Source: Rhizobiales bacterium 2SD (GTDB taxonomy: Bacteria > Pseudomonadota > Alphaproteobacteria > Rhizobiales > Beijerinckiaceae). Taken from it: DNA of 64,000 nucleotides. Every line of letters begins with the position of its first letter. Position 1 is the stretch's first letter. The notes beneath the pieces are model-generated. The model made no database searches and was not told where the DNA came from. It saw nothing but the letters and a program-made list of their open reading frames with translations. Location of the stretch: positions 1 to 64,000 of the forward strand of contig SCMY01000015.1 in NCBI GenBank assembly GCA_005502805.1, read 5' to 3'. The translations under genes were made by a program, and so were the position numbers. Below are positions 11,823 to 62,247 of this stretch, piece by piece.

Positions 11823-12310
11823 GATGTCGCCACGTCCTGCCGGCCTCGCTCGGCGGCGAGCATCACCGCCTTGACGATCTCGACATGGGTGCCGCAGCGG
11901 CAAAGATTATGGCGCAGCGCCTCGCGCACCTCCGCCTCGCTCGGATCGGGCTGGACGTCGAGGAAGGCCTTCGCTGTCATCACCATGCCGGCGATGCAGT
12001 AGCCGCATTGCGCCGCCTGCTCGTCGATGAAGGCCTGCTGCAGCGGATGCGGCGTCTCGATGCTGCCAAGGCCTTCGAGCGTGACGATCTCGCGATCTTC
12101 CGCCAGCCTGACCGGCAGGGCACAGGCGCGCGCCGCCTGGCCATCGACCAGCACCGTGCAGGCGCCGCATTCGCCGAGGCCGCAGCCGAATTTGGGACTG
12201 TTGAGGCAGAGGTCGTTGCGCAGGAAGAACAGCAGTGGCGTCTGGGGTTCGCCCTCGATTTCATGGCTCGCGCCGTTGACGCGAAGCGTGAAGCGCTTCG
12301 TCGTCCTCAT
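11819..12310 (-). CDS. nicA: Nicotinate dehydrogenase subunit A, two [2Fe-2S] clusters
   Basis: The small iron-sulfur subunit (163 residues) that relays electrons from the molybdenum centre in NicB. The plant-type ferredoxin motif CGLGECGACTVLVDG with a following Cys is near residues 46-67, and the helical second-cluster motif is QCGYC...NLCRCGTH in the C-terminal half. The ATG at 12310 gives the usual family start (RxxxRFTLRVNG); a longer in-frame start near 12415 would run through the operator and is rejected. It is first in a two-gene operon with nicB (4-bp overlap). An 18-bp palindrome centred about 67 bp upstream is identical in its core to sites at the other nicotinate genes, so repression by the NicR-like MarR protein is expected. 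Confidence 0.86.
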   Translation of the reverse strand: MRTTKRFTLRVNGASHEIEGEPQTPLLFFLRNDLCLNSPKFGCGLGECGACTVLVDGQAARACALPVRLAEDREIVTLEGLGSIETPHPLQQAFIDEQAAQCGYCIAGMVMTAKAFLDVQPDPSEAEVREALRHNLCRCGTHVEIVKAVMLAAERGRQDVATS

Positions 12311-12368
12311 GGCTCGCCCGAGCGGGGCGAGGCGCGCCTGATCGTCCTGATCGTCACGGCCACCAAGA

Positions 12369-12386
12369 TCATTCGTATACGAATGA
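12369..12386. promoter_or_regulatory. NicR-type operator upstream of nicAB
   Basis: TCATTCGTATACGAATGA is a perfect 18-bp palindrome. On the minus strand a possible -35 (TTGCAG, 12415-12410) lies 37.5 nt from its centre, so bound repressor would cover the -10/+1 zone of the nicA promoter. Its half-site ACGAATGA recurs exactly at 13854-13860 plus neighbours, and its core recurs at 62145-62162. Confidence 0.82.
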
Positions 12387-12442
12387 GAATAAGGATAAAT
12401 CGAAGGGAGCTGCAAGCGGGATTTCAGCGCTGAAGCATACCA

Positions 12443-12558: not shown

Positions 12559-13755
12559 CTAATGCCCCACCGACGGGATCTTCTCCGCCGGCGGGGTGTT
12601 GCGGCTGATGCCGCTGCGGACGATGCCGTCGATCACGATCATGCCGATGCCGGGCAGGTCGCCAAGCTGGATCGAGTCGAGGAAATTCCTGCCGGCCGAA
12701 TGCTGGGCCTTGTCCATGAAGACGAAATCGGCGGTACGGCCGACCTCGATCAGCCCGCAATCGAGGCTGCGCATCCGGGCGGTGTTGCCGGTGGCAAAGC
12801 AGAACGCGACTTCGGCCGGGACGTCACCGAGCGAGGACAGCATCGAGACCATTCTGATGATGCCGAGCGGCTGCACGCCCGAGCCGGCCGGCCCGTCGGT
12901 GCCGAGGATGACGCGCTTGAGATCGCCCATCTCGCGGGCGACGCGCAGCGTATAGAGCGCGGCGCGCTCATTGCCGTTATGCACCAGTTCGAGGCCGCGC
13001 TTGCAGCCCTCGCAGATGCAGCGGATCTCCTTGTCCGGCAGGGCCGTGTGGCCGCCATTGATGTGGCCGACGACATCGGTGTCGGCCTCCAGCACGACAT
13101 CGGCGCCGATCAGCCCGGAGCCGGGGATCGAGGGGCCGCCGGTGTGGATGGTCGACTGGATCCCGTATTTGCGGGCCCAGGCCACCATTTCTCTGGCGCG
13201 CGCCCCGTCCTTGACGCCGCCGAGCCCGACCTCGCCGAGCAGCTTCACGCCGGCATCGGCCAGGTCCTTGAAGTCCTGCTCGACCATGCCGGGCTCGATC
13301 ACCGGCGCTCCGGCATGGACCTTGACGCCGCCGGGACGGAAGGCGGTGAAGGCGCGCTGGGCATAGATCGCCATCGCCTTCAGGCCGACGATGTCCTTGG
13401 GCCGGCCGGGGGTGTGGACCTCGCCGGCCGAGATCATGGTGGTGACGCCGCCATGCATGGTCGAATCGATCCAGCCGAGCTGGTTCTGGCGCGGCGTCCA
13501 GTCGCCGGCGACCGGGTGGACATGGCTGTCGATCAGCCCGGGCGAGAGCACGGTGCCGTTGGCGTCGATCACCGTATCGGCCTGGTCGGTGTCGAGATCC
13601 TTGAAACGGCCGACCGCGGCGATCCGGCCGCCGATGGCGACGAGCGTGTCGGCTTCGAGGATCGGGCGCTCGATATCGCCGGAAAGCATCAGGCCGATAT
13701 TCTTCACCACCAGCTTGTGGGTGCTGCTGACCGTGGTCGCCTGCTGTTCAGCCAT
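12559..13755 (-). CDS. ena: Enamidase-like amidohydrolase (nicotinate pathway)
   Basis: A 398-residue amidohydrolase-superfamily enzyme. It matches the enamidase of Eubacterium barkeri, which opens 1,4,5,6-tetrahydro-6-oxonicotinate to 2-formylglutarate plus ammonia. Diagnostic stretches are DSHVHPVAGDWTPRQ (metal-binding H78 and H80), STMHGGVTTMISAGEVHTPGRP, KLLGEVGLGG, STIHTGG, VGHINGG and the late ILGTDGPAGSG with the conserved Asp. It is transcribed away from the ferredoxin gene; one operator sits between them, with a TTGACA (13890-13885, minus strand) at the right distance on its side. Dihydroorotase-like or imidazolonepropionase-like roles are possible for this superfamily, but the gene context strongly favours enamidase. 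Confidence 0.85.
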   Translation of the reverse strand: MAEQQATTVSSTHKLVVKNIGLMLSGDIERPILEADTLVAIGGRIAAVGRFKDLDTDQADTVIDANGTVLSPGLIDSHVHPVAGDWTPRQNQLGWIDSTMHGGVTTMISAGEVHTPGRPKDIVGLKAMAIYAQRAFTAFRPGGVKVHAGAPVIEPGMVEQDFKDLADAGVKLLGEVGLGGVKDGARAREMVAWARKYGIQSTIHTGGPSIPGSGLIGADVVLEADTDVVGHINGGHTALPDKEIRCICEGCKRGLELVHNGNERAALYTLRVAREMGDLKRVILGTDGPAGSGVQPLGIIRMVSMLSSLGDVPAEVAFCFATGNTARMRSLDCGLIEVGRTADFVFMDKAQHSAGRNFLDSIQLGDLPGIGMIVIDGIVRSGISRNTPPAEKIPSVGH

Positions 13756-13815: not shown

Positions 13816-13890
13816 TTGACAAGCATGGCGGGATGCGAGATATTGTTTGTATACGAATGAATTTCTGCCCCGTTCGGACCCGGCTGTCAA
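13816..13890. promoter_or_regulatory. Divergent ena / fdxA promoters sharing one NicR-type operator
   Basis: The operator TTTGTATACGAAT (13846-13858) is centred at 13851.5. A perfect TTGACA on the plus strand (13816-13821) is followed after 17 bp by GATATT (13839-13844) for the ferredoxin gene. A perfect TTGACA on the minus strand (13890-13885) faces the enamidase gene, though its -10 is weak. The two -35 boxes start 35.5 and 38.5 nt from the operator centre, so a single bound dimer could shut both promoters. Confidence 0.72.
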
Positions 13891-13906
13891 GCAGCAAGGA
13901 TCGCGC

Positions 13907-14236
13907 ATGCCTTACGCCGTCACCAGCGCCTGCATCCGTTGCAAGTACATGGATTGCGTCGAGGTCTGCCCGGTCGACTGCTTCTACGAGGGCGAGAACA
14001 TGCTCGTCATCCACCCGGACGAATGCATCGACTGCGGCGTCTGCGAGCCGGAATGCCCGGCCGAAGCGATCGTCGCCGACAGCGCCGATGGGGCCGAGCA
14101 ATGGCTGGCCTTGAACGCGCGGCTGGCGCCGCTCTGGCCGAACATCACCCAGAAGAGCGAGCCGCCGGCGGATGCCGACGACTGGAAGGGAATACCGGAC
14201 AAGATCGACCTGCTTTCCGAACGCCCGGCAATGTGA
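13907..14236 (+). CDS. fdxA: 7Fe ferredoxin, FdxA type
   Basis: A 109-residue ferredoxin with a [3Fe-4S] and a [4Fe-4S] cluster. Cys ligands are in [17 protein letters not shown] (C9, C12, C17, C21, C25) and [12 protein letters not shown] (C40, C43, C46, C50); the roughly 50-residue C-terminal extension is usual for FdxA. ATG at 13907 has AAGGA at 13896-13900; an earlier TTG in frame would start inside the operator and is rejected. Its promoter carries the same operator as the nicotinate genes. Hnr of E. barkeri is ferredoxin-dependent, so this protein is the natural candidate donor, with the next gene supplying electrons from NADPH. FdxA is often housekeeping in this group, so the dedicated role is inferred from regulation. 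Confidence 0.93.
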
Positions 14237-14296
14237 TATTGGGTGGCCTGCATCCGATAATCTGCTAAATCGCTAGACTATCTAAGGATCGACGAG

Positions 14297-15070
14297 ATGA
14301 GCAATTTCTACGAGGAGCGCGTCCTCTCCGTCCATCACTGGACCGATACGCTCTTCAGCTTCACGACGACCCGCGACACGACCTTCCGCTTCAAGAACGG
14401 CCAGTTCACGATGATCGGGCTCAAGGTCGGCGAGAAGCCGCTGCTGCGCGCCTACAGCGTCGCCAGCACTAATTACGACGAGAACCTCGAGTTCTTCTCG
14501 ATCAAGGTGCCGGACGGCCCGCTGACCTCGCGCCTGCAGAACCTGCAGGTCGGCGATCCCATCATCATCGGCAAGAAGGCGACGGGCACGCTGGTGCTCG
14601 ACAACCTCAAGGACGGCAAACGCCTGTTCCTGCTCGGCACCGGCACGGGCCTTGCCCCCTTCCTGTCGCTGATCCGCGATCCCGAGACCTATGAGCGCTA
14701 CGAGAAGGTCGTGCTCGTCCATGGCTGCCGCCAGGTCTCCGAGCTGGCCTATGGCGAGCGTATCCAGCAGGAACTGCCGAACGACGAGTTTTTGGGCGAG
14801 ATGATCCGCGAGCAGCTGATCTACTACCCGACCGTGACGCGCGAACCCTTCCGCAATCGCGGCCGCATCACCGACCTGCTGACCTCCGGCCAGCTCTTCA
14901 GCGATACCGGCCTGGGCCCGTTCGATCCGGCGGGCGACCGCTTCATGCTCTGCGGCAGCCCGCAGATGCTGGTCGACCTCAAGCAGATCTTCGACGAGCG
15001 CGGCCTGGAAGAGGGCAATCACGGCGAGGCCGGCGACTACGTCATCGAGAAGGCTTTCGCCGAGCGCTGA
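14297..15070 (+). CDS. fpr: Ferredoxin-NADP+ reductase
   Basis: A 257-residue FAD enzyme of the bacterial Fpr type that exchanges electrons between NADP(H) and ferredoxin or flavodoxin. The FAD motif RAYSVAST is near residue 51, the NADP-binding GTGTGLAPFLSLIRD near 116, and LCGSPQML near 217; the C-terminus AFAER is typical of alphaproteobacterial subclass members. It starts 60 bp after fdxA on the same strand, so it may be cotranscribed and serve the nicotinate ferredoxin. The gap is AT-rich enough (GATAATCTGCTAAATC region) to hold its own promoter, so a general redox role is equally possible. Confidence 0.93.
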   Translation: MSNFYEERVLSVHHWTDTLFSFTTTRDTTFRFKNGQFTMIGLKVGEKPLLRAYSVASTNYDENLEFFSIKVPDGPLTSRLQNLQVGDPIIIGKKATGTLVLDNLKDGKRLFLLGTGTGLAPFLSLIRDPETYERYEKVVLVHGCRQVSELAYGERIQQELPNDEFLGEMIREQLIYYPTVTREPFRNRGRITDLLTSGQLFSDTGLGPFDPAGDRFMLCGSPQMLVDLKQIFDERGLEEGNHGEAGDYVIEKAFAER

Positions 15071-51224: not shown

Positions 51225-51255
51225 TGAAATCGATTACATGCACGTTTTGCGTGCA
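51225..51255. promoter_or_regulatory. Probable LacI/ROK-type operators upstream of the xylose-type ABC operon
   Basis: TGAAATCGATTACA (51225-51238) is a palindrome with one mismatch and has the centre-CG look of LacI-family operators. It abuts TGCACG (51239-51244), TTTTG, CGTGCA (51250-51255), a second perfect inverted repeat. A TTGACG at 51280-51285 may be a -35 box; no clear -10 is seen. Confidence 0.5.
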
Positions 51256-51366
51256 ATCGGCATTGCCTTCAATGTGTGCTTGACGGGCCTCGGCCGATAC
51301 GCTCACCTTCCCTCCAATCCGACGCGCCGCACGACAGAGCGCGGCCGCAAACGAGGGAGAAACGCC

Positions 51367-52416
51367 GTGTTGAGACGCCATTTTCTCGCCGCAGGCCTCG
51401 CGCTCGCGGCCTTCGGCAGCGCATTCCCCGCTTCCGCCCAGAGCAAGGGCCCGGTGATCGGGGTGAGCTGGTCGAACTTCCAGGAAGAGCGCTGGAAAAC
51501 CGACGAGGCGGCGATCAAGGCGGCGATCGAGAAGGTCGGCGGCACCTATCTCTCGGCCGATGCGCAATCCTCGCCCGCCAAGCAGCTCACCGATGTCGAG
51601 AGCCTGATCGCGCGCGGCGCCAAGGCGATCATCGTGCTGGCCCAGGACGCGCAGGCGATCCGCCCGGCGGTGCAGAAGGCGGTCGACGAAGGCATCGCGA
51701 TCGTCGGCTATGACCGGCTGATCGAGATCCCGCAGGCCTTCTACCTGACCTTCGACAATGTCGAGGTCGGCAGGATGATGGCGCGCGAAATCCAGAAGGC
51801 GAAGCCGGAAGGCAACTACGTCTTCATCAAGGGCTCGAGTTCGGACCCGAACGCCAATTTCCTGTTCCAGGGCTCGATCGAGGTGCTGAAACCGGCGATC
51901 GATGCCGGCAAGATCAAGAATGTCGGCGAGGCCTATACCGATGGCTGGCTGCCGGCCAACGCCCAGCGCAACATGGAGCAGTTCCTGACGCGCAACGCCA
52001 ACAAGGTCGACGCCGTCATCGCCGCCAATGACGGCACCGGCGGCGGCGCCATCGCCGCACTCGCCGCGCAGGGCCTCGCCGGCTCCGTGCCGGTCTCCGG
52101 CCAGGACGCCGACCGGGCAGCGCTCAACCGCGTCGCGCTCGGCACCCAGACGGTGACGATCTGGAAGGATGCGCGCGAGCTCGGGCGCAATGCCGCCGAG
52201 ATCGCGATCAAGCTCGCCGGCGGCGCCAAGCTGACCGAGGTCGCAGGTGCGACCGCCTGGGACCAGGGGCCGAGCAAGGCCAAGATGACCGCGCTGTTCT
52301 TGAAGCCGGTGCCGGTGACCAAGGACAATCTCGGCGTGGTGATCGAGGCCGGCTGGGCGCCAAAGGCAGCCGTCTGCCAGGGCGTCGCCGCCGGCAAGGT
52401 CAAGGCCTGTGACTGA
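51367..52416 (+). CDS. xylF: D-xylose-type ABC transporter substrate-binding protein
   Basis: A 349-residue periplasmic sugar-binding protein. The signal peptide is [24 protein letters not shown]. It follows E. coli XylF closely in pattern: [74 protein letters not shown] and [20 protein letters not shown]. The start is GTG at 51367 with GAGGGAG upstream. It overlaps the permease gene by 8 bp. Xylose is the best guess for the ligand. Confidence 0.88.
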
Positions 52417-53713
52417 AAGCGTACCAGCGCCGGCAACGCCGTCGCAGGATGCGAAGAGCTTCGCCGACCATCTGCGCGCGATCGAGTTCGACGCGCGGAT
52501 GGTCGGCATGATCGCCGCGCTGGCGGTGATCTGGCTAGGCTTCAACTGGCTCTCGGGCGGCGCCTTCCTGACGCCGCGCAATCTCTGGAACCTCTCGGTC
52601 CAGACCGCTTCGGTCGCGGTGATGGCCTGCGGCATGGTGCTGGTCATCGTCACCCGCAACATCGACCTCTCGGTCGGCTCCATGCTCGGCTTCGTCGGCA
52701 TGGTTACCGGCCTCGTCCAGGCGCAACTGCTCCCCGGCCTGCTCGGCTTCGAACACCCGGCCACCTGGTTGCTCTCGATTGCGGCGGCGGTCGCGCTCGG
52801 CGGGCTGATCGGCCTGTTCCAGGGCGCGCTGATCGCCTATCTCGCCATCCCTTCCTTCATCGTCACGCTCGGCGGCCTCCTGGTCTGGCGCGGCGGCGCC
52901 TGGTGGGTGACGCAGGGCCAGACCATCGCGCCGATGGATTCGCGCTTCCGTCCCCTCGGGGGCGGCATCGAGGGCGCGATCGGCACGACCGCGTCCTGGG
53001 CGATCGGCCTTATCATCTGCGCCCTGATCATCGCCGGGATCGCCTTCGCCCGGCGTCGGCGCAAGCGTTACGGTTTCGCCCTGCGCCCACTCTGGGCCGA
53101 GATCGTACTGGCCGCACTCGCCTGCGGCACCGTGCTCGGCGCGGTGATGATCGCCAACGCCTACGCCCTGCCGGCCGGGGTCGCCCGGCGCCTCACCGAG
53201 GCGAAAGGCGGCACCTGGCCCGAAGGCGGGCTCATCATCGGCCATGGCCTCGCCGTGCCGGTTCTGCTCGCGCTCGCGGTCGGTGTCGCCATGAGCTTCC
53301 TGGCGCGCCGCCTGCGTTTCGGGCGCTATGTCTTCTCGATCGGCGGCAATCCCGAGGCCGCCCAGCTCTCCGGCGTCAACACGCGAAAAGTGCTGATGCT
53401 GGTCTACGGGCTGATGGGCATGCTGGTCGGCATCGCTGCCTGCATCTCGACCGCCCGCCTCAATGCCGCGACCAACTCGGCCGGCCAGCTCGACGAGCTC
53501 TATGTCATCGCCGCGGCGGTGATCGGCGGCACCTCGCTGGCCGGCGGCATCGGCACCATCGCCGGCGCGATGCTGGGCGCCCTGGTGATGCAGTCGCTGC
53601 AATCGGGTATGGTGCTGATCGGCGTCGACACGCCCCTGCAGAACATCGTCGTCGGCATCGTGCTCGTCCTCGCCGTCTGGCTCGACGGGCTCTATCGCAA
53701 GCGGCTGGGTTAG
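52409..53713 (+). CDS. xylH: Sugar ABC transporter permease, XylH type
   Basis: A 434-residue permease of the ribose/xylose branched family. It has ten or more hydrophobic segments, the EAA-like block [29 protein letters not shown], and [61 protein letters not shown] central polar insert around residues 210-270 (RRRRKRYGF...[15 protein letters not shown]) is typical of XylH rather than RbsC. It starts with GTG inside the xylF 3' end. Confidence 0.9.
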
Positions 53714-53731
53714 CGGGATGAGCGCGGCAAA

Positions 53732-53874
53732 CTCCCCTGTCATTCCGGGTCGCCGCGCAGTGGTGAGCCCGGAACCCACGACTGGGCGAGCGCGATCGAC
53801 GGGGTCGTATTTGAGGGTTTACCCGGCCTTGGGTTCCGGGTTCTCGCTTCGCGAGCCCCGGAATGACAGGGGAG
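53732..53874. repeat. REP-like inverted repeat between xylH and xylG
   Basis: CTCCCCTGTCATTCCGG (53732-53748) pairs with CCGGAATGACAGGGGAG (53858-53874), and inner segments GGAACCCA / TGGGTTCC also pair. It fills the 171-bp gap between the permease and ATPase genes of one operon, where it may lower expression of the distal gene. Confidence 0.8.
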
Positions 53875-53884
53875 GAGCCTGCCC

Positions 53885-54664
53885 ATGGACATGACCACGC
53901 CCCTCGTCGAGATGCGCGAGATCTCGATCGCCTTCGGCGGCATCAAGGCGGTCGACCATGCCAGCGTCGACCTGCATGCCGGCGAGGTGGTCGGCCTGCT
54001 CGGTCATAACGGCGCCGGCAAGTCGACGCTGATCAAGATTCTGTCGGGAGCCTATCACGCTGACGCCGGCGAGATCAGGATCGCCGGCAAGCCGGTATCG
54101 ATCTCCTCGCCCCGCGATGCCAAGCGCCACGGCATCGAGACGATCTACCAGACGCTCGCTCTGGCGGACAATGTCGACGCCGCCGCCAACATCTTTCTCG
54201 GCCGCGAGCTCCTGACCTCGTGGGGCACGCTCGACGACAGCGCCATGGAAGCCGAGACCCGCAAGGTGATGGGCCGGCTCAACCCGCATTTCCGCCGTTT
54301 CAAGGAGCCGGTGAAGGCGCTCTCCGGCGGCCAGCGCCAGTCGGTCGCGATCGCCCGTGCGATCTATTTCAACGCGCGGGTGCTGATCATGGACGAGCCG
54401 ACCGCGGCGCTCGGGCCGGCCGAGACCAAGCAGGTCGCCGACCTCATCCTCGAATTGAAGAAGCAGGGCATCGGCATCTTCCTGATCAGCCATGACCTGC
54501 ACGACGTCTTCGACCTCGCCGACCGCGTCAGCGTGATGAAGAACGGCAAGGTGGTCGGCACCGCCCATGTCCGTGACGTCACACAGGACGAGGTGCTCGG
54601 CATGATCATATCCGGCAAATGCCCGCCCGGCGCAGTGGCCGGGCCGGGCGCGCTACGCAGCTAG
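53885..54664 (+). CDS. Sugar ABC transporter ATP-binding protein, single-domain
   Basis: A 259-residue ATPase with Walker [11 protein letters not shown]-loop YQTLALADN, signature LSGGQRQ, Walker B VLIMDEP and H-loop ISHDLHD. At 259 residues it is a single nucleotide-binding domain, like FrcA, whereas XylG proper is a tandem of two (~510). It presumably powers the XylFH pair. The order F-H-G and the short ATPase resemble rhizobial frcBCA layout. Confidence 0.92.
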
Positions 54665-54692: not shown

Positions 54693-55277
54693 TCAGCGCA
54701 AACCGTCCTCGCCCTTGGCTTCGACATGGGTGAGCCCGCCGACGCGCGGCAGCGGCCGGCCGCCACTGGTCAGGGCGACCGCGACGACGATCTCGCCGGC
54801 GCGCGGCGCATCGGGAATGCGCACTTCCATGCCGTCGAAATGGCTGCGGACATAGGCCGCCGCCTTGTGGCCGAGCGGCACGTCGAGGACGACGCCGAGC
54901 GAGCCGCGCTTCTTCGAGGACGGGATCAGTGCCGGCGCCTTGCCCAGGAGCTTGCGCAGGGGCGCGCCCAGCTTGGGATGCAGGATCGCGGCGGCATGCT
55001 CCAATTCGCCGTCCTCGCCGACGGCCGCCGCCTTGCCATAGCCTTGGACCGCCTCGCCCTCGATGCCGAGCGCGGCGAGCGCATGGCGGCCGAGCAGGTC
55101 GCCGAGCTCCTCGCCGATGTCGATCAGCTCGGAGAGGTCGTCCTGATAGGTGCCGGCGAAGGGGTTGGCGATCACCGCGACCGCCGCGGCGCGCTTGATC
55201 GGCGGCGAGACGGGCCGGCCGAGCTCGCTATGGGTCTCGTCGAGGATGGTGACGATCTTGCGGATCCTCGCTGTCAT
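54693..55277 (-). CDS. PF06684 (amino acid synthesis, formerly DUF1185) family protein, copy 2
   Basis: A 194-residue protein of PF06684. Members have a Bacillus-chorismate-mutase-like fold; the name reflects guesswork and no reaction is established. Shared blocks with the upstream paralog are AVAVIANPFAG, VQGYGKAAAVG-x3-GELEH, PSSKKRGSLG-x2-LDVPLGH, YVRSHFDGMEVRIPDAP and the C-terminal KGEDGLR. It is the last gene of the hnr operon and overlaps the upstream copy by 4 bp (ATGA). The duplication within a nicotinate operon suggests a heteromeric complex or two consecutive steps. Whether it acts on a ring-opening product is inference. Confidence 0.85.
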   Translation of the reverse strand: MTARIRKIVTILDETHSELGRPVSPPIKRAAAVAVIANPFAGTYQDDLSELIDIGEELGDLLGRHALAALGIEGEAVQGYGKAAAVGEDGELEHAAAILHPKLGAPLRKLLGKAPALIPSSKKRGSLGVVLDVPLGHKAAAYVRSHFDGMEVRIPDAPRAGEIVVAVALTSGGRPLPRVGGLTHVEAKGEDGLR

Positions 55278-55858
55278 CGCAGGCCGTCCTCGCCCTTGAT
55301 CTCGCTCGCCTTGAGGCCGCCGACACGGGCATGGATGCGCGGTCCGGTCGCCATCACCAGCGCGAACAGCAATTCATCGGCCTTGGGCGCATCGGTGATG
55401 CCGATCTCGAAGGCGTCGAAATGGCTGCGGACATAGGACGCGTTGACATGGGTGACGGGGATGTCGAGGCGCGTGCCGGGGCCGCCGACCTTCTTGGTCG
55501 AGGGCACGATCGCCTTGGCGTCGCCCAACAACTCGCGCATGGCGTAGCCGCCAGGGACATGCCAGAGCGCGCCATGCTCGAGCTCGCCGTTAGCGCCTAC
55601 AATGGCGCCCTTGCCATAGCCCTGGATCGCCTTGGCATCGCCGCCCATTGCGGCGAGCAGGCGCTGCGCCATGGCGAGGCCGAAGGGCTTGAGATCGTCC
55701 ATGAAGCCTTGGATGTCCTCGACATAGCGGCCGGCATAGGGGTTGGCGATCACGGCGAGCGCCGCGCCGCGCTTCAACGGCGTCGCTGCAACCGGGCCGC
55801 CCTCATGGAAGATTTCCTCGACGGTCACGGCGTATTTTCGCACGGCGATCTCAGGCAC
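55274..55858 (-). CDS. PF06684 (amino acid synthesis, formerly DUF1185) family protein, copy 1
   Basis: A 194-residue paralog of the next gene. Shared blocks are LAVIANPYAGRYVEDI, IQGYGKGAIVGANGELEHGA, PSTKKVGGPGTRLDIPVTHVNASYVRSHFDAFEIGITDAPKA and KGEDGLR at the C-terminus. GTG at 55858 is chosen as start because GGAG ends 8 bases upstream; a TTG at 55864 is too close to that site. It overlaps the UPF0280 gene upstream by 8 bp and the second copy by 4 bp, so the four genes from hnr onward are tightly coupled. Function is unknown. Confidence 0.85.
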   Translation of the reverse strand: MPEIAVRKYAVTVEEIFHEGGPVAATPLKRGAALAVIANPYAGRYVEDIQGFMDDLKPFGLAMAQRLLAAMGGDAKAIQGYGKGAIVGANGELEHGALWHVPGGYAMRELLGDAKAIVPSTKKVGGPGTRLDIPVTHVNASYVRSHFDAFEIGITDAPKADELLFALVMATGPRIHARVGGLKASEIKGEDGLR

Positions 55859-56738
55859 GGGCAAGTCTCCTCTCGGGCTTTTCTTGAACGATCATAGGCG
55901 TGGCGAGCGCACGGCTCACACCCTGCAGATGCATGGCGGCCGAGACGATCAAGCCTGCCGCCCGCAGGCGCTCCGCCTCGGCGAGGCCGGCGGCTAGCGC
56001 GGTTTCGATCTCATCGACGGCCAGCGGGCCGACATCGCGGGTCACCAGCCGTTCGCCGAGATCGCTGTCGCTTTGGATCGTGTTAGCGGGCTGACGCTCG
56101 ACCGCAGGATGGCCGGGCAGGTCGATCGCATTGGCGATCACGGTCGCGGCGGCGTCGGCCATGGCCGCGGTCGGGGCCAGAACCGTCACCGCCTCGGCGA
56201 TGCCGAACGAAAAGCTGCGGCCGGGATAGCCTGATGTCGCAATGCCGGCGACGCCGTCCTCAGGCCGAATCGTCGCGGTGGCGAAGAACTCCGGTCGGTC
56301 GGGGCGTTTCACCAGCCCAATGCGGAACTGCTCGCCGGGAGCGAGATGCAGGGCGATGTCGCCGCCATTGTTGACATAGGCGCGCTGGAGCGGTGCAGCC
56401 CGGCACATCACGATGAGGATCTCTTGCGCCACCGAACCGGCGACGGCGGCCATCGGCGTGATGAAGCCGCGCTCGGCGAAAGGGCTGACGGCCGCATGCA
56501 TGCGCCGGGCGACCTGTCCGAGCGGCTGCGGACTCGTCCGACTCACCGCCGTGCGCAGCAGCTTCAATTCATCGCAGAGCTCGGCGAGCAGACCGTCGAA
56601 GCGAACGATGGCAGCTTCATGCGCAGCCTTGACCGCGCTCTGTTCGCCGACGGCCTCGATGACGAGATCGATCGGCCCCTGCTGCAGGAGCAGGCGCCGG
56701 CCATCCGGCAGAATGCGCGCGGAGGGCTTTTCCCACAT
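55851..56738 (-). CDS. UPF0280 family protein (ApbE-like fold)
   Basis: A 295-residue protein of UPF0280, a family related to ApbE flavin transferases. The ApbE-like stretch VNNGGDIALHL is present near residue 125, along with PMAAVAGSVAQEILI and SSGYPGRSFSFG-type text (here TSGYPGRSFSFG). It lies 4 bp after hnr in the same operon. Because Hnr is an iron-sulfur flavoprotein in E. barkeri, a role in attaching or handling its flavin is an attractive guess. However, I see no canonical ApbE target ([S/D]GAT-like) in this Hnr. A role on a pathway intermediate is an equal alternative. Confidence 0.84.
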   Translation of the reverse strand: MWEKPSARILPDGRRLLLQQGPIDLVIEAVGEQSAVKAAHEAAIVRFDGLLAELCDELKLLRTAVSRTSPQPLGQVARRMHAAVSPFAERGFITPMAAVAGSVAQEILIVMCRAAPLQRAYVNNGGDIALHLAPGEQFRIGLVKRPDRPEFFATATIRPEDGVAGIATSGYPGRSFSFGIAEAVTVLAPTAAMADAAATVIANAIDLPGHPAVERQPANTIQSDSDLGERLVTRDVGPLAVDEIETALAAGLAEAERLRAAGLIVSAAMHLQGVSRALATPMIVQEKPERRLARA

Positions 56739-56742
56739 CGCC

Positions 56743-58227
56743 CTAGCCGAGCGAGCGGCGCGGCTGCTCCGGCGCCAGCGGCCAGGGATTGTCCGGGCGC
56801 TGCGGCAGGCGCAGGCGGCTGCCGCCCTTCAGCGAAACGAGCGGCTGGATCGCGTCCATATGGCCGCCGAGCGCCTCGTAGTCGCTCAGGCTCATGGTGA
56901 ATTCGAGCGGCGCGACCAGAGCCGGCGTCGGCACATAGCCGAAGGCGTTCTCGGGCAGGCGGGTGACGTCGACCATGAAGGTGATGCCACCACCCGGCCA
57001 GATATAGACCGGGGCGCCACCGCAAGTGACATAGGTCAGCGCATCCTTCACCGAGCGGGTCAGGCGGACCGGGTTCTCGGTGACGCCGGCGCGCAGCGAG
57101 CCACCGGCGCCGCCGATGAACAGCACGGTGGAGAGCGCCGGCTCGCAATTCTCGGCGATGCGCTCGACCGGTTCGACCAGCGGCTGCGGCATCTGCATCT
57201 CGACCGGAACGAGGTTCTCGTCGAGCTCGTAATAGGCGGCGTGCTCGCCGGTGGTCGAGACCATCAGCAGGCGCAGGCCGGGATAGGCGACCTTGGGGTC
57301 GAACGGCCCGAGAATGGTCAGGGGGTCGCTGATATTGGTGCCGCCCCAGCCGGTGCCGGGCTGCGCCACCTGGAAATAGCGGCCGGGGGTCGAGCGCCGA
57401 CCCTTCATCTTGATGCCGGTGCCCGCCATGCCGAGCAGCTTGCCGGCCTGATGCTCGGAGAGCACGCCGGTGATGTGATCGTCGACGACGACGACCTCGT
57501 CGACCTTGCCATGCCATTGCTTGGCGAAGATGCCGATCGTCGCCGAGCCGCAGCCGACGCGCATCCGGCTTTCCTGGATGCCGTTGACGATCGGCGGCTT
57601 GCCGGCCTGGACGATCACCGTCTCGCCCTCGTCGATGGTGAGCTCGACCGCCTTGCCGTTGCTGAGCTGGAGCAGCGCGTCGCAGGTGACGCGGCCCTCC
57701 TTCTTCGAGCCGCCGGTGAGGTGGTGGACGCCGCCGAGCGAGAGCATCTGCGAGCCGTATTCGCCGGTGGTGACGTGGCCGATCGCCTCGCCCTCGACGC
57801 GCACCGTCGCCTGCTCCGGGCCGAGGAAGCGGTCGGTGTCGATCTTCACCTTGACGCCGCAATAGCTGAAGATGCCCTCGGTCACGACGGTGACCATGTC
57901 GACGCCGTCAACCTCAGAGGAGACGATGAACGGGGCCGGCTTGTAGTCGGGATAGGTGGTTCCGGCGCCGATCGCAGTGATGAAGGTGCCCTGCTGGTGG
58001 ACGATCTCGCCGTCCCACTCACGGCTCCCGGCGAAGGGAACGACCTCGCCGCCATGCTCCAGCGTGCGCTCTAGCACGATATGCGGCTCCATCCGCACCA
58101 GCTCGCCATCGACATTGCCGTAGCGATCGCAGGCGCCGACGGCGCCCGGCTTGATGAAGCACATCACCGGGCAGGCATCGCAACGGATCTTGTCGTCCGC
58201 GACCGGGCTCGCTTCGTCCAGCGCCAT
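56743..58227 (-). CDS. hnr: 6-Hydroxynicotinate reductase
   Basis: A 494-residue iron-sulfur flavoprotein homologous to Hnr of Eubacterium barkeri, which reduces 6-hydroxynicotinate to 1,4,5,6-tetrahydro-6-oxonicotinate with ferredoxin. The N-terminal cluster motif is C16-x2-C19-x3-C23-x9-C33 (RCDACPVMC...GACDRYG). Other blocks are TVVTEGIFSYCGVKVKIDTDR, RMRVGCGSATIGIFAKQWHG and VTCGGAPVYIWPGGGITFMVDV. GGGAGG upstream supports ATG 58227. It heads an operon with UPF0280 and two PF06684 genes. Its promoter (TTGACT at 58307-58302 on the minus strand) is followed by a NicR-type operator. Such a reductive step in an aerobic alphaproteobacterium matches the route reported for Azorhizobium. Confidence 0.87.
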   Translation of the reverse strand: MALDEASPVADDKIRCDACPVMCFIKPGAVGACDRYGNVDGELVRMEPHIVLERTLEHGGEVVPFAGSREWDGEIVHQQGTFITAIGAGTTYPDYKPAPFIVSSEVDGVDMVTVVTEGIFSYCGVKVKIDTDRFLGPEQATVRVEGEAIGHVTTGEYGSQMLSLGGVHHLTGGSKKEGRVTCDALLQLSNGKAVELTIDEGETVIVQAGKPPIVNGIQESRMRVGCGSATIGIFAKQWHGKVDEVVVVDDHITGVLSEHQAGKLLGMAGTGIKMKGRRSTPGRYFQVAQPGTGWGGTNISDPLTILGPFDPKVAYPGLRLLMVSTTGEHAAYYELDENLVPVEMQMPQPLVEPVERIAENCEPALSTVLFIGGAGGSLRAGVTENPVRLTRSVKDALTYVTCGGAPVYIWPGGGITFMVDVTRLPENAFGYVPTPALVAPLEFTMSLSDYEALGGHMDAIQPLVSLKGGSRLRLPQRPDNPWPLAPEQPRRSLG

Positions 58228-58263
58228 GCTTGATCCTCCCGCAGAGCGGGTCTTAAGAATTTT

Positions 58264-58307
58264 GTTTGTGTACAAACGATACTGGCGCGCCTCTTAGACC
58301 AAGTCAA
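58264..58307 (-). promoter_or_regulatory. hnr promoter with NicR-type operator
   Basis: On the minus strand TTGACT (58307-58302) is a likely -35. The operator GTTTGTGTACAAAC (plus-strand coordinates 58264-58277) is palindromic except for its two central bases and is centred 36.5 nt from the -35 start, covering the expected -10/+1. It lies 37 bp upstream of the hnr start codon. Confidence 0.75.
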
Positions 58308-58619: not shown

Positions 58620-59453
58620 ATGTATGACGTCTTCGCCACGGACCGCCTGATCGACCATTGGCTTGTCGAGGATATCGGCGCCTGCGACCTCACCGTCCAG
58701 GTGATGATCGAGCCGGGCGAGACCGGCAAGTTCCACATGAACGCCCGCGAGCCGATGATCGTCGCCGGCGTCGAGGTCGCGGCCCGTGTGTTCAAGCGCT
58801 ACGATCCCGAGCTCAAGGTGACCCTGCGCGTCAAGGACGGCGACAAGGTCGAGAAGGGCGCCATCCTGGTCGAGATCGAGGGCTCGGCCCGCAGCGTGCT
58901 CACCGCCGAGCGCACCGCGCTCAACATCGCCCAGCGTCTTTCCGGCATCGCCAACGAGACCGCCCGCTACGCCGCCGCAATGGCCGGCAGCAAGGCGCGG
59001 CTGATCGACACTCGCAAGACCACGCCCGGCCTGCGCATGATGGAAAAGCACGCCGTGACCTGCGGCGGCGGCCTCAACCACCGCCTCGGCCTCGACAATG
59101 GCGTGATGATCAAGGACAACCACATCGCCGTCTGCGGCAGCATCACCGCCGCCGTCGAGCGCGCCCGCAAGAAGCTGCCGGTACTGACCAAGCTCGAGGT
59201 CGAATGCGACCGGCTCGAGCAGGTCGAGGAGGCCGCCAAGGCCGGCGCCGACGTGATCATGCTCGACAACATGTCGGTCGCCGACATGACCAAGGCGGTC
59301 GCGCTGATCGCCGGCCGCGCTAAGGTCGAGGCCTCCGGCGGCATCAATATCGACACGATCGGCCCGATCTCCAGGACCGGCGTCGACTACATCTCGACCA
59401 GCAAGATCACGCAGTCGGCGCCGGCGGTGGATATCGGCCTCGACGAAGCCTGA
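58620..59453 (+). CDS. NadC-type nicotinate-nucleotide pyrophosphorylase (quinolinate phosphoribosyltransferase-like)
   Basis: A 277-residue member of the NadC family, which converts quinolinate plus PRPP to nicotinate mononucleotide and CO2. Signature blocks are AERTALNIAQRLSGIANETARY, RLIDTRKTTPGLRMMEKHAVTCGGGLNHRLGLDNGVMIKDNHI (PRPP and pyridine-acid contacts), LEVECDRLEQVEEA, DVIMLDNM and VEASGGINIDTI. The Arg/Lys residues of the active site appear intact. Finding NadC inside a catabolic regulon rather than with nadAB is odd. It may be a second NadC that protects NAD synthesis, or may act on a related pyridine. It is 19 bp upstream of the phnN/phosphorylase fusion, which could make its PRPP. 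Confidence 0.86.
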   Translation: MYDVFATDRLIDHWLVEDIGACDLTVQVMIEPGETGKFHMNAREPMIVAGVEVAARVFKRYDPELKVTLRVKDGDKVEKGAILVEIEGSARSVLTAERTALNIAQRLSGIANETARYAAAMAGSKARLIDTRKTTPGLRMMEKHAVTCGGGLNHRLGLDNGVMIKDNHIAVCGSITAAVERARKKLPVLTKLEVECDRLEQVEEAAKAGADVIMLDNMSVADMTKAVALIAGRAKVEASGGINIDTIGPISRTGVDYISTSKITQSAPAVDIGLDEA

Positions 59454-59472
59454 GCAAAGATGCGGCCAAGGA

Positions 59473-61515
59473 ATGCGGCAAGGCACCTTCTTCCTCGTCG
59501 TCGGCCCGAGCGGGGCCGGCAAGGACTCGCTGATCGACGGCGCCCGCACCCTGCTGGAGCCGACGGGCCGCTATGTCTTCGCGCGCCGCGTCGTCACCCG
59601 CCCCGCGGGATCGCCGGGCGAGGACCATGAGGCGGCGACGGACGAGGCCTTCGACGCGCGCGAGGCCAAGGGCGATTTCCTGATCACCTGGGGCGCCCAT
59701 GGCCTGCGCTACGGCCTGCCGGCCGAACTGAAGCGCCTGGTCGAAGCCGGCCGCAACGTCATCGCCAACGGCTCGCGCGCCACGATCGCGGCGCTCGCCC
59801 CCCGCCTGCCGCGCTTCGTCGTCGTCGAGGTCACCGCGCCGCCCGAGGTGCTCGCCGCCCGCATCGCCGGGCGCGGGCGCGAGAGCGGCGAAGCGATCGA
59901 GAAACGCCTGTCGCGCACGGTCGAGCCGCGCCCGGAAGGGATCAGGGCGGCAACGATCTGCAACGATCAGAGCGTCGAGATCGGCATCGAGCGCTTCGTC
60001 GCCGCGGTCGAGGCCGCCGCCAACACGATGCGCCTGCGCCGCCTGCCGCTCTTCGCGGGACGGACACATTGCGCCTATCTCCCGGCCAAGGGCGAGATCG
60101 TCAACGGCTTCGACTATCTCGGGCCGGGCCGGATCGAGATTTCTGGCGCGACGGCCAGCATCCGCTCGAATGTTCAGGTGGTCGATTCATCCGCCCTGCT
60201 CGGCGGCGACGAGATCGGCCTCTCGGCCGAGGCCTTCGACGAGCTCGGCCTATCCGAAGGCAGCGAAGTCACGATCCGGCGCACGCCCTCGCCGGAGAGC
60301 CGGGTGGCGCTGACCCGCAAGATCCAGGGCGGCGAGCTCACGGAAGAGCAATACCACACGCTGATCCGCGACATCGTCGAGGCCCGCTATCCCGATGGCG
60401 AGGTCGCGGCCTTCCTGGTCGCGGCAACGCAGAAACTCTCCGACGACGAGGTCATCGCGCTGGCACGAGTGCGGACCCGCTTCGCCCAGAAGATCACCTG
60501 GCCGGACAAGATCGTCGTCGACAAGCATTCGATGGGCGGCATTCCCGGCAGCCGGATCACGCTGATCGTCGTGCCGATCGTGGCGGCCCATGGCGCCTTC
60601 CTGATGCCGAAGACATCCTCGCGCGCCATCACCTCGGCGGCGGGCACGGCCGATGCGATGGAGGCGCTCGCCCGCGTCGAATTGAACCCAACCGAGCTGC
60701 GCGCCTGCGTGGAAAAGGCGCGTGGCTGCATCGCCTGGAACGGGCGATTGAACCACTCGGTCGTCGACGACGTGATGAACGCGATCACGCGGCCGCTCGG
60801 CATCGATTCCAATCGCTGGTCGGTCGCCTCGATCCTGTCGAAGAAGCTCACGGCCGGCTCGACCCATGTCATCGTCGACCTGCCCTATGGCCCACGCGCC
60901 AAGCTGAAGAGCGAGGCGGAAGCCGCCGAGCTGGCGCAACTGTTCGAGACCGTAGGCAGCGGGCTCGGCCTCGTCGTCAAGGCCTTTCCGACCGATGGCA
61001 GCCGCCCGATCGGGCGCGGCATCGGGCCGGCGCTGGAATGCCGCGATGTCGGCTGGGTGCTCGACAACGATCCGCAGGCGCCGGCCGACCTGGTCGAGAA
61101 GGCGCTGTTCTTCGCCAGCCGTATCCTCGCCTGGGACCCGGCGCTCGGCTCGATCGCGGCTGGGCGAGCGCGCGCCGAGGAGCTGCTGCGCTCCGGCGCG
61201 GCGCGGACCGCCTTCGAAAGGATCATCGATGCGCAGGGGCGGCGCGAGCCGCCGGTCGCGCCGGGGCTGCTGGTCCATACCGTGCGCTCGCCGAAGGCCG
61301 GGACCGTCACCGAGATCGACGGCTGGGCGGTTGCGGGCATCGCAAGGCGGGCCGGAGCTCCCTTCGACAAGGCCGCCGGGATCGACCTGCGCCGCCATGT
61401 CGGCGACACCGTTGCAGCAGGCGATCCGCTCTTCGCCATCCACGCCAGCGCCTCGAGCGATCTCGACGAGGCCAAGGCGATGGCGGAGGAGTGCGACTGC
61501 TACGTGATCAGCTAA
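59473..61515 (+). CDS. Fusion of PhnN ribose 1,5-bisphosphokinase and AMP-phosphorylase-type nucleotide phosphorylase
   Basis: One uninterrupted 680-residue frame. Residues 1-185 are PhnN, which makes PRPP from ribose 1,5-bisphosphate: Walker A GPSGAGKDS at 11-19, then VTRPAGSPGEDHEAATDEAF and a GRGRESG lid. Residues ~195-680 are a thymidine-phosphorylase-superfamily domain of the archaeal AMP phosphorylase type: an N-terminal beta domain, KHSMGGIPGSR near 350 (the P-G-S-R variant marks nucleotide rather than nucleoside users), PKTSSRAITSAAGTADAMEAL near 380-400, and DGSRPIGRGIGPALE near 515. In archaea the phosphorylase yields base plus ribose 1,5-bisphosphate, the PhnN substrate. The fusion would therefore channel NMP to PRPP. 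The nucleotide used (AMP, CMP, or a pyridine nucleotide) cannot be told. Confidence 0.85.
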   Translation: MRQGTFFLVVGPSGAGKDSLIDGARTLLEPTGRYVFARRVVTRPAGSPGEDHEAATDEAFDAREAKGDFLITWGAHGLRYGLPAELKRLVEAGRNVIANGSRATIAALAPRLPRFVVVEVTAPPEVLAARIAGRGRESGEAIEKRLSRTVEPRPEGIRAATICNDQSVEIGIERFVAAVEAAANTMRLRRLPLFAGRTHCAYLPAKGEIVNGFDYLGPGRIEISGATASIRSNVQVVDSSALLGGDEIGLSAEAFDELGLSEGSEVTIRRTPSPESRVALTRKIQGGELTEEQYHTLIRDIVEARYPDGEVAAFLVAATQKLSDDEVIALARVRTRFAQKITWPDKIVVDKHSMGGIPGSRITLIVVPIVAAHGAFLMPKTSSRAITSAAGTADAMEALARVELNPTELRACVEKARGCIAWNGRLNHSVVDDVMNAITRPLGIDSNRWSVASILSKKLTAGSTHVIVDLPYGPRAKLKSEAEAAELAQLFETVGSGLGLVVKAFPTDGSRPIGRGIGPALECRDVGWVLDNDPQAPADLVEKALFFASRILAWDPALGSIAAGRARAEELLRSGAARTAFERIIDAQGRREPPVAPGLLVHTVRSPKAGTVTEIDGWAVAGIARRAGAPFDKAAGIDLRRHVGDTVAAGDPLFAIHASASSDLDEAKAMAEECDCYVIS

Positions 61516-61679: not shown

Positions 61680-62135
61680 TCAGCGCAGCTGCTTCAACAG
61701 CGCGACCAGCGTCGCTCGCTGGTTGGTTGCAAGCGGCGCCAGCGTCACCTTGGTGACCGTCTCGGCCTTGGGCAGCAATTCGCGGGTATAGTCGACGCCG
61801 GCCGGACTGAGCTCGACGATGAGGCGACGGCCATCCTGGGGATCGGGCTTGGTCTGGACCAGCTTGCGCTTGAGCAGGCGGTCGACCACGCCCTTGATCG
61901 TGGCGGCGTCCATCGCGGTCTGGCGTCCCAGCAGGTTCTGCGAGGAGCCGCCATCCTGATAGAGCCGCGCCAGCACCGCCCATTGCGTTGGCGTCAGGTC
62001 GCTCCCCATGATCTCGTTGAAGATCGAGACATGGCGCTGCGCCGCCTGGCGCATGATGAAGCCGACCTGCTCGGCGAGATCATAGCTCTCATCGGCAGGC
62101 TCGGGCGTCTCGGCCGCAGTGCTCGGTCGCACCAT
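61680..62135 (-). CDS. nicR: MarR family repressor of nicotinate catabolism (NicR/BpsR-like)
   Basis: A 151-residue winged-helix regulator. The pattern EQVGFIMRQAAQRHVSIFNEIMG-x-DLTPTQWAVLARLYQDGGSSQNLLGRQTAMDAATIKGVVDRLLKRKLV matches the NicR/BpsR subgroup, which in Pseudomonas and Bordetella represses nicotinate catabolism and is released by 6-hydroxynicotinate. The wing is DPQDGRRLIVELS. ATG 62135 is preceded by GAGG. An 18-bp perfect palindrome lies directly upstream, so it likely represses itself as well as the five other units that carry the same site. Confidence 0.83.
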   Translation of the reverse strand: MVRPSTAAETPEPADESYDLAEQVGFIMRQAAQRHVSIFNEIMGSDLTPTQWAVLARLYQDGGSSQNLLGRQTAMDAATIKGVVDRLLKRKLVQTKPDPQDGRRLIVELSPAGVDYTRELLPKAETVTKVTLAPLATNQRATLVALLKQLR

Positions 62136-62144
62136 CGCTGATCC

Positions 62145-62162
62145 TCGTTCGTATACGAACGA
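62145..62162. promoter_or_regulatory. NicR-type operator upstream of the MarR gene
   Basis: TCGTTCGTATACGAACGA is a perfect 18-bp palindrome whose right arm ends 10 bp from the start codon region. It shares the CGTATACG core with the nicAB operator at 12369-12386, 50 kb away. No strong -35 is visible on its upstream side. Confidence 0.82.
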
Positions 62163-62247
62163 TATTCCTAGCGCGCTTTTCTGGCGACCGGAACCGGCTG
62201 GATCGCCGAGAATCACGCTTCGTCCACGACATCAGCGAAGCAGGTCC

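Follow-up and report, generated by a model that had tools for sequence, protein, structure and literature searches.

A nadC gene paired with a PhnN/phosphorylase fusion in proteobacteria: a proposed PRPP-recycling route from quinolinate to nicotinate

The stretch of DNA analysed here, 64,000 nucleotides of contig SCMY01000015.1 from Rhizobiales bacterium 2SD (hereafter the window), carries a nadC-type gene for a quinolinate phosphoribosyltransferase (QAPRTase), followed by a gene in which the ribose 1,5-bisphosphokinase PhnN is fused to a domain of the nucleoside monophosphate (NMP) phosphorylase type. The two genes form a conserved pair that co-occurs with genes of nicotinate degradation and whose history can be followed in sequence trees. 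We judge it moderately probable that they constitute a two-gene catabolic cassette converting quinolinate (pyridine-2,3-dicarboxylate) to nicotinate, with phosphoribosyl pyrophosphate (PRPP) as a recycled cofactor. A preliminary description of the window had taken the fusion for a general salvage route from NMPs to PRPP; the route proposed here explains the data better, and the earlier interpretation as a whole is partly supported.

In the proposed route, NadC would combine quinolinate with PRPP to give nicotinate mononucleotide (NaMN), CO2 and pyrophosphate (PPi), a decarboxylation that would be eased by ribosylation of the ring nitrogen. The phosphorylase half of the fusion would then split NaMN with phosphate (Pi) into nicotinate and ribose 1,5-bisphosphate (R15P), from which the PhnN half would, with ATP, regenerate PRPP and release ADP. 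The net reaction would be quinolinate + ATP + Pi -> nicotinate + CO2 + ADP + PPi, and the nicotinate would enter the nicotinate pathway of the cell, here probably that of a molybdenum (Mo) hydroxylase, 6-hydroxynicotinate reductase and enamidase. We infer that the three reactions take place in vivo and in this direction, with NaMN as the substrate of the phosphorylase and quinolinate as the imported compound. It is somewhat probable that this amounts to a "ribonucleotide handle" cycle, in which the acid is decarboxylated while transiently held on ribose 5-phosphate and then phosphorolysed off, PRPP being rebuilt by one bifunctional protein and serving as a cofactor of degradation rather than as a building block. 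If so, bacteria would possess a nucleotide-dependent route for quinolinate breakdown in which an NMP phosphorylase and PhnN cooperate, genes annotated as plain phnN beside nadC would be accounted for, and a catabolic pathway would lie hidden behind the names phnN and nadC given to such loci (in two annotated records).

The gene pair and its distribution

The 80 named loci considered here are the best 80 of at least 525 relatives obtained from a scan of named genome contigs. Counts rest on tblastn, because the codon-usage script used for gene calls missed the nadC gene of one locus (L034), which tblastn found. Identical DNA, by coordinates or sequence, was sampled twice in three cases (L033/L192, L035/L161 and L037/L174), and in the genus of the window a weak NadC match in G329 (33% identity, E 2.3e-4) was excluded from both NadC classes. 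The named loci span the alpha-, beta- and gammaproteobacteria (Bosea, Rhodoplanes, Variovorax, Cupriavidus, Caballeronia, Pseudomonas). At 74 of the 80, the fusion is preceded by a NadC gene of the same orientation no more than 1.5 kb away, and at 67 of these loci the distance is at most 69 bases. Among the other six, a contig end marks the start of L146 and L179, L174 corresponds to the bc1-type locus in genome G183, and L172, L181 and L185 gave no NadC in the fetched flank. In other genomes nadC neighbours the fusion nearly always and hnr, the gene of a 6-hydroxynicotinate reductase, in part of the loci; the preliminary description had raised both as possible neighbours.

In the genus of the window, 33 of 67 genomes have a cassette-type NadC (68-100% identity), and every one of these 33 genes stands directly upstream of the fusion or of a piece of it. 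The fusion matches nearly the whole query in 29 of the 33 genomes; G349 has an insertion in frame, and G328, G337 and G342 have fusions broken by contig ends. A sample of 297 genomes of the order yielded nine besides that of the window that match over nearly the whole query, three of which (L033, L034, L035) combine NadC and fusion with a tripartite ATP-independent periplasmic (TRAP) transporter of the TAXI/DctM type.

At five loci (L162, L164, L168, L170, L195) PhnN and the phosphorylase are encoded by two genes lying side by side. The annotated plasmid records L198 and L199 label the whole fusion phnN, an annotation from which the phosphorylase half cannot be seen. The phosphorylase also has unfused relatives of about 500 residues (L042-L052, group C), which are often accompanied by a Prs-like gene (one was scanned) and a gene of MBL-fold appearance; this neighbourhood is perhaps another R15P or PRPP module.

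The fusion protein

The continuous 680-residue frame noticed in the preliminary description proved to be real and conserved. Against the NCBIfam models, residues 4-179 score 184.5 bits with the PhnN model TIGR02322 (cut-off 156), and residues 186-674 score 603.9 bits with NF003338 (PRK04350 thymidine phosphorylase; cut-off 434). Both motifs reported earlier were located in the sequence, the Walker A motif GPSGAGKDS at residues 11-19 and KHSMGGIPGSR at residues 351-361. The narrower PhnN model PRK10078 gives 101 bits, below its cut-off of 153. The C-terminal half belongs to the thymidine-phosphorylase-2/NMP phosphorylase superfamily (TIGR02645, 462.2 bits, cut-off 434.6) but falls short of the AMP phosphorylase equivalog (TIGR03327, 392.3 bits, cut-off 535). 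The name "AMP phosphorylase" was rejected on the ground of this curated cut-off.

The question whether the fusion might be an assembly artefact, also raised earlier, is settled by its presence in many other assemblies. Compared with the 84% identical orthologue of L120, dN/dS was 0.176/0.558 in the PhnN half, 0.143/0.464 in residues 181-272 and 0.073/0.490 in the phosphorylase core, which indicates purifying selection throughout. The rows of the fold look-up mostly cover residues 273-680 (one starts at 184), so that this comparison hardly bears on the PhnN half.

The closest solved structure to the phosphorylase half is AMP phosphorylase. The motif PKTSSRAITSAAGTAD is common to the fusion and archaeal AMP phosphorylase and different in nucleoside phosphorylases, as would suit a substrate phosphorylated at the 5' position. 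At residues 422-428 the fusion reads WNGRLNH, unlike the archaeal WGGALNL and unlike the unfused relatives; this stretch fits a different base, yet it marks the whole fused clade. Residues 423, 425, 428 and 436 are unlike those of archaeal AMP phosphorylase and of 12 unfused relatives, save for one arginine at 425. R425, H428 and N436 were considered as a mark of NaMN specificity and rejected: the NadC-less fusions of group B, nested within the cassette clade, have them too, so that they mark the entire fused clade and say nothing on the base. NaMN is the likeliest NMP, being the product of the adjacent NadC and closing the cycle.

Variants of the fusion occur. In L181, L183-L189, L191, L193 and L194 the N-terminal domain of the phosphorylase (within residues 180-273) is wholly or largely missing; in such forms (the Caballeronia loci and some others) PhnN is joined almost directly to the core. 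The insertion of G349 (L118) comprises about 35 residues near residue 226 and keeps a single open frame.

Cassette NadC and its history

Solved QAPRTases match the cassette NadC (down to E 8.4e-66), and alignments with 5hup, 1x1o and 5hul show that it retains the conserved QAPRTase stretches ER, RK, NHR and K(D/E)NH. The window's cassette NadC shares 76-79% identity with its counterparts in Pseudomonas, Caballeronia or Cupriavidus; the same genomes encode a second NadC, which reaches 41-45% identity to the window's protein. Such a second NadC is present in 8 of 16 named cassette genomes, hand-picked for spread. Further matches of 31-33% in G369, G370 and G371 were not taken as a second NadC, and G375 has an additional cassette-type NadC (74%).

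Five cassette genomes (L106-L110) have nadA and a nadB relative with no nadC there, and they gave no NadC match other than that of the cassette; in the eight nadA genomes of the genus that lack the cassette, nadC lies near nadA. As the sole NadC of five nadA-nadB genomes, the cassette NadC can probably carry out the NadC reaction. This suggests that it is a working QAPRTase, one that may also serve the synthesis of nicotinamide adenine dinucleotide (NAD).

A tree of the phosphorylase core has two clades, one of the 12 unfused relatives (100/99) and one of all cassette, split and bc1-type fusion forms (100/99), the bc1-type fusions sitting inside a fork with cassette forms (98/98). Because the bc1-type fusions are nested in this way, their loss of NadC is probably secondary, and NadC-less fusions are probably later losses. 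In the NadC tree, cassette and second NadC cluster apart, but this tree does not prove that the cassette NadC arose once: 18% of the bootstrap trees have one change.

Co-occurrence with nicotinate degradation

Within the genus, hnr was found in 32 of 33 cassette genomes and in 8 of 34 others (Fisher p 1.8e-10, not corrected for phylogeny); in some genomes, such as G316, it lies far from the cassette. Among the 16 named cassette genomes, nine have hnr and seven a relative of NicX with an identity of 51% or more, a count that includes the genome from which the query came; one genome has both. The two nicotinate pathways marked by hnr and NicX have only their first steps in common.

Genes of nicotinate catabolism also lie near the cassette itself. 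The fetched flank holds a marker at 28 of the 74 NadC-bearing loci, in 24 of them hnr, enamidase or NicX. At L155, the only one of the 80 loci with NicX in its flank, the cassette adjoins relatives of NicX (7cn3, E 4.5e-113) and NicF; this second neighbour matches 3ot4/3uao (E 1.5e-96), tabulated as a putative isochorismatase and presumably a maleamate amidase. Among control loci with bc1-type fusions or unfused phosphorylases, some of them short, a marker was seen in 1 of 17 (a 24% Mo-hydroxylase match with a small subunit). The 16 housekeeping nadC loci (20 kb each) contained none of the cassette or catabolic genes sought. Given this co-occurrence, nicotinate catabolism is likely the context of the cassette, not the unexpected neighbour for which it had first been taken.

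Transport and the source of quinolinate

Transporter genes are frequent at the 80 loci: 24 have a TAXI/DctM-type TRAP transporter, 21 an NMT1-type binding protein and nine a Bug-type binding protein (one Bug-type locus also has NMT1), and 27 have none of these types. The bug gene directly follows the fusion in eight of the nine Bug-type loci. At the Variovorax locus L163 the binding protein behind the fusion matches Bug27 over 300 residues (E 7.4e-135); the other Bug-type proteins were compared with that of L163 alone. In PMC11452294, quinolinate binding was measured for Bug27 and Bug69, that of Bug27 from B. pertussis being in the submicromolar range, and bug27 adjoins nadC and phnN in Variovorax and Jezberella. 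In the annotated record of Variovorax SRS16, phnN is a gene of 2154 bases followed by one for a tripartite tricarboxylate binding protein; from this length and this neighbour, the phnN in question is the fusion.

Two internal sources of quinolinate were considered. A general role in the de novo NAD route from aspartate was rejected, as nadA occurs in just 5 of the 33 cassette genomes of the genus (28 are without it). An origin of the kynurenine type showed no link: nbaC is present in 14 of 33 cassette genomes and in 18 of 34 others, a match below the cut-off in G360 being left out of the count. Neither nadA nor nbaC was found in 18 of the 33.

Points against the cycle and alternative explanations

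Several observations weigh against the proposed cycle. The sequence holds no proof that NaMN is the substrate, and we know of no phosphorylase acting on NaMN, of which the fusion would be the first; among the literature matches listed, none concerned a NaMN phosphorylase, a PhnN-phosphorylase fusion or a catabolic NadC. Fusions without NadC exist: the six genomes of one genus that make up group B (L036-L041) have the fusion with no NadC match at all, at a locus whose other genes, judged by eye, look like those of a Rieske protein, cytochrome b and cytochrome c1, and L181 and L185 lack NadC in the fetched flank. Three loci (L172, L176, L177) have the phosphorylase without the PhnN half; at the Rhodospirillaceae metagenome loci L176 and L177, nadC, hnr and a UPF0280 gene are present. 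The link with nicotinate has its exceptions in G315, a genus genome with the cassette and no hnr (assembly 92% complete, 310 contigs), in G376, a named cassette genome in which neither hnr nor NicX was found, and in the 46 of 74 NadC-bearing loci whose fetched flank gave no marker. The figure of 15 of 16 named cassette genomes with hnr or NicX stands without a matched control, no cassette-free named genome having been searched for these genes; hnr is moreover common across the order, and 6 of the 11 order genomes with an unfused phosphorylase have it. The transporter of the window is of the sugar type, and inactivation of bug69 left growth on quinolinate unimpaired (as cited in PMC11452294). 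Finally, L106-L110 seem to use the cassette NadC for NAD too, where a phosphorylase draining NaMN would oppose its use.

This last use belongs to the alternative that survives best, quinolinate salvage for NAD, in which NadC makes NaMN and the fusion merely provides PRPP from AMP, CMP or UMP, an explanation close to that of the preliminary description. The window's own genome gave no NadC match besides the cassette NadC, which probably replaces the missing nadC of nadA-nadB in five others; Bordetella and streptococci are known to salvage quinolinate with NadC alone (PMC11452294), and AMP phosphorylase is the best solved relative of the phosphorylase half. Salvage for NAD does not, however, predict the association with nicotinate degradation seen in the genus and in 15 of 16 named genomes, nor does it fit the other NadC in half of the latter, the TIGR03327 score, the four residues that depart from archaeal AMP phosphorylase or the fusion's absence beside all 16 housekeeping nadC genes. 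We regard it as unlikely. The part of the earlier proposal in which the fusion feeds PRPP to NadC survives: the fusion is genetically tied to nadC, and PRPP from the PhnN half could therefore serve NadC. The general salvage reading gives way to a catabolic cycle on the NaMN made by the adjacent NadC.

The phosphorylase might instead break down NaMN or nicotinamide mononucleotide (NMN) arising from NAD turnover and so yield nicotinate or nicotinamide for catabolism, with NadC as a side branch. All six bc1-type fusion genomes without a NadC match carry hnr, one merely as a fragment, which also counts against the cassette reading, and the three loci that keep the phosphorylase without PhnN would agree with such recycling; yet NadC is the most constant partner of the fusion, NadC-less forms are nested within the NadC-bearing clade, and hnr is common in the order to which the NadC-less fusion genomes belong, so that this explanation is improbable. 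That the neighbours reflect chance or hitch-hiking devoid of metabolic meaning is very improbable, for although most loci show no marker in the flank and phylogeny does not enter the Fisher test, the pair persists in three proteobacterial classes with varying transporters next to it, its NadC is far more alike across them than the second NadC is to that of the window, and the link covers two nicotinate pathways.

Comparison with known systems

The proposed cassette would join parts known from separate systems. The archaeal NMP phosphorylase TK0352 splits NMPs to give R15P, the compound that PhnN converts to PRPP (PMC9700705). In the archaeal pentose bisphosphate pathway, the NMP (AMP) phosphorylase (PDB 4ga4, 4ga5) supplies R15P to R15P isomerase and Rubisco; in the cassette, by contrast, the phosphorylase is fused to PhnN and placed beside nadC, and R15P would become PRPP. 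The fusion also departs from the archaeal enzyme in its AMP phosphorylase score and in the WNGRLNH stretch. It resembles the ribose 1,5-bisphosphokinase PhnN in exceeding the curated cut-off of TIGR02322 with Walker A intact, and differs from plain PhnN in its C-terminal extension and in its constant neighbour, which is nadC rather than phosphonate genes (the latter were not sought as such).

Another close system is NadC-based salvage with Bug69 and Bug27 (PMC11452294), in which nadC and phnN adjoin a bug27 gene of Variovorax; in an annotated Variovorax record this phnN is the fusion. The preliminary description was therefore only partly right in calling the module undescribed. The paper treats nadC-phnN-bug27 under NAD biosynthesis, and its main text contains neither 'thymidine phosphorylase' nor 'catabol'. 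With the Eubacterium barkeri-type clusters of alphaproteobacteria, which encode a nicotinate pathway via THON and contain hnr, the genes for steps one to three and a pair of conserved proteins without known function (PMC3511419, available part), the window shares enamidase and the Mo-hydroxylase, beside which it has a putative hnr. Neither nadC nor a phosphorylase is named in that part of the paper, and the cassette would add an entrance for quinolinate.

In aerobic quinolinate degradation via 6-hydroxyquinolinate, hydroxylation precedes decarboxylation and no nucleotide intermediate is involved. Both routes would be quinolinate catabolism, but only the cassette would use a nucleotide intermediate.

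Gene neighbourhood of the window

The features of the window are collected in Table 1. As the preliminary description had noted, nadC has an hnr-like neighbour on the minus strand. This gene is 71% identical to a CP030828.1 gene that its depositors named hnr, 6-hydroxynicotinate reductase, and 67-71% identical to genes so named by depositors in 7 of the 15 matches listed; it has no Pfam or NCBIfam match. The tandem pair of paralogous AA_synth genes (54693-55864) and the UPF0280 gene travel with hnr. The 2vun match identifies the enamidase expected in a nicotinate pathway of the E. barkeri type.

Table 1. Predicted features of the window, with the cassette given first
Feature	Position	Strand	Basis and occurrence
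nadC-type quinolinate phosphoribosyltransferase	58620-59453	+	TIGR00078, 325.1 bits, above cut-off of 198.4
PhnN/NMP-phosphorylase-type fusion	59473-61515	+	One open frame, 680 residues; starts 19 bases behind nadC
PhnN domain (ribose 1,5-bisphosphokinase type), fusion residues 1-180	59473-60012	+	TIGR02322 and Walker A
NMP-phosphorylase-type domain, fusion residues 186-680	60028-61515 (stop codon included)	+	NF003338, TIGR02645
6-hydroxynicotinate reductase-like gene (hnr)	56743-58275	-	Beside nadC; homologues align from about 58227
UPF0280/PRK04334 family protein	55851-56738	-	NF003322, 391 bits, cut-off 290; relative in 20 of 80 cassette loci
AA_synth (PF06684) protein 1	55274-55864	-	Pfam; relative in 13 of 80 loci
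AA_synth (PF06684) protein 2, paralogue of protein 1	54693-55277	-	Pfam; second copy in several loci
Sugar-type ATP-binding cassette (ABC) transporter	51238-54664	+	Pfam; binding protein 51238-52416, permease 52409-53713, ATPase 53885-54664
MarR-type regulator beside fusion	61680-62216	-	PF12802
Molybdopterin hydroxylase with cytochrome c domains	8298-11903	-	Pfam MoCoBD_1, MoCoBD_2, Cytochrom_C; relatives in flank of 14 of 80 loci
2Fe-2S subunit of molybdopterin hydroxylase	11819-12415	-	Fer2_2
Enamidase	12559-13755	-	2vun_A ENAMIDASE, E 3.3e-107, residues 14-393; relative in 9 of 80 loci
Ferredoxin	13847-14236	+	FdxA model NF045490, above cut-off
Ferredoxin-NADP reductase-like gene	14297-15070	+	NF008178, 156.5 bits, below cut-off of 390

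The molybdopterin hydroxylase gene at 8298-11903, which bears no database label to this effect, is presumably a candidate for the large subunit of nicotinate dehydrogenase, and the ferredoxin and reductase-like genes (13847-15070) are a possible electron supply for 6-hydroxynicotinate reductase. The ABC transporter is a possible importer, and one is found at the corresponding place in L082 and L083. A MarR relative lies within 3.5 kb at 15 of the 74 NadC-bearing loci.

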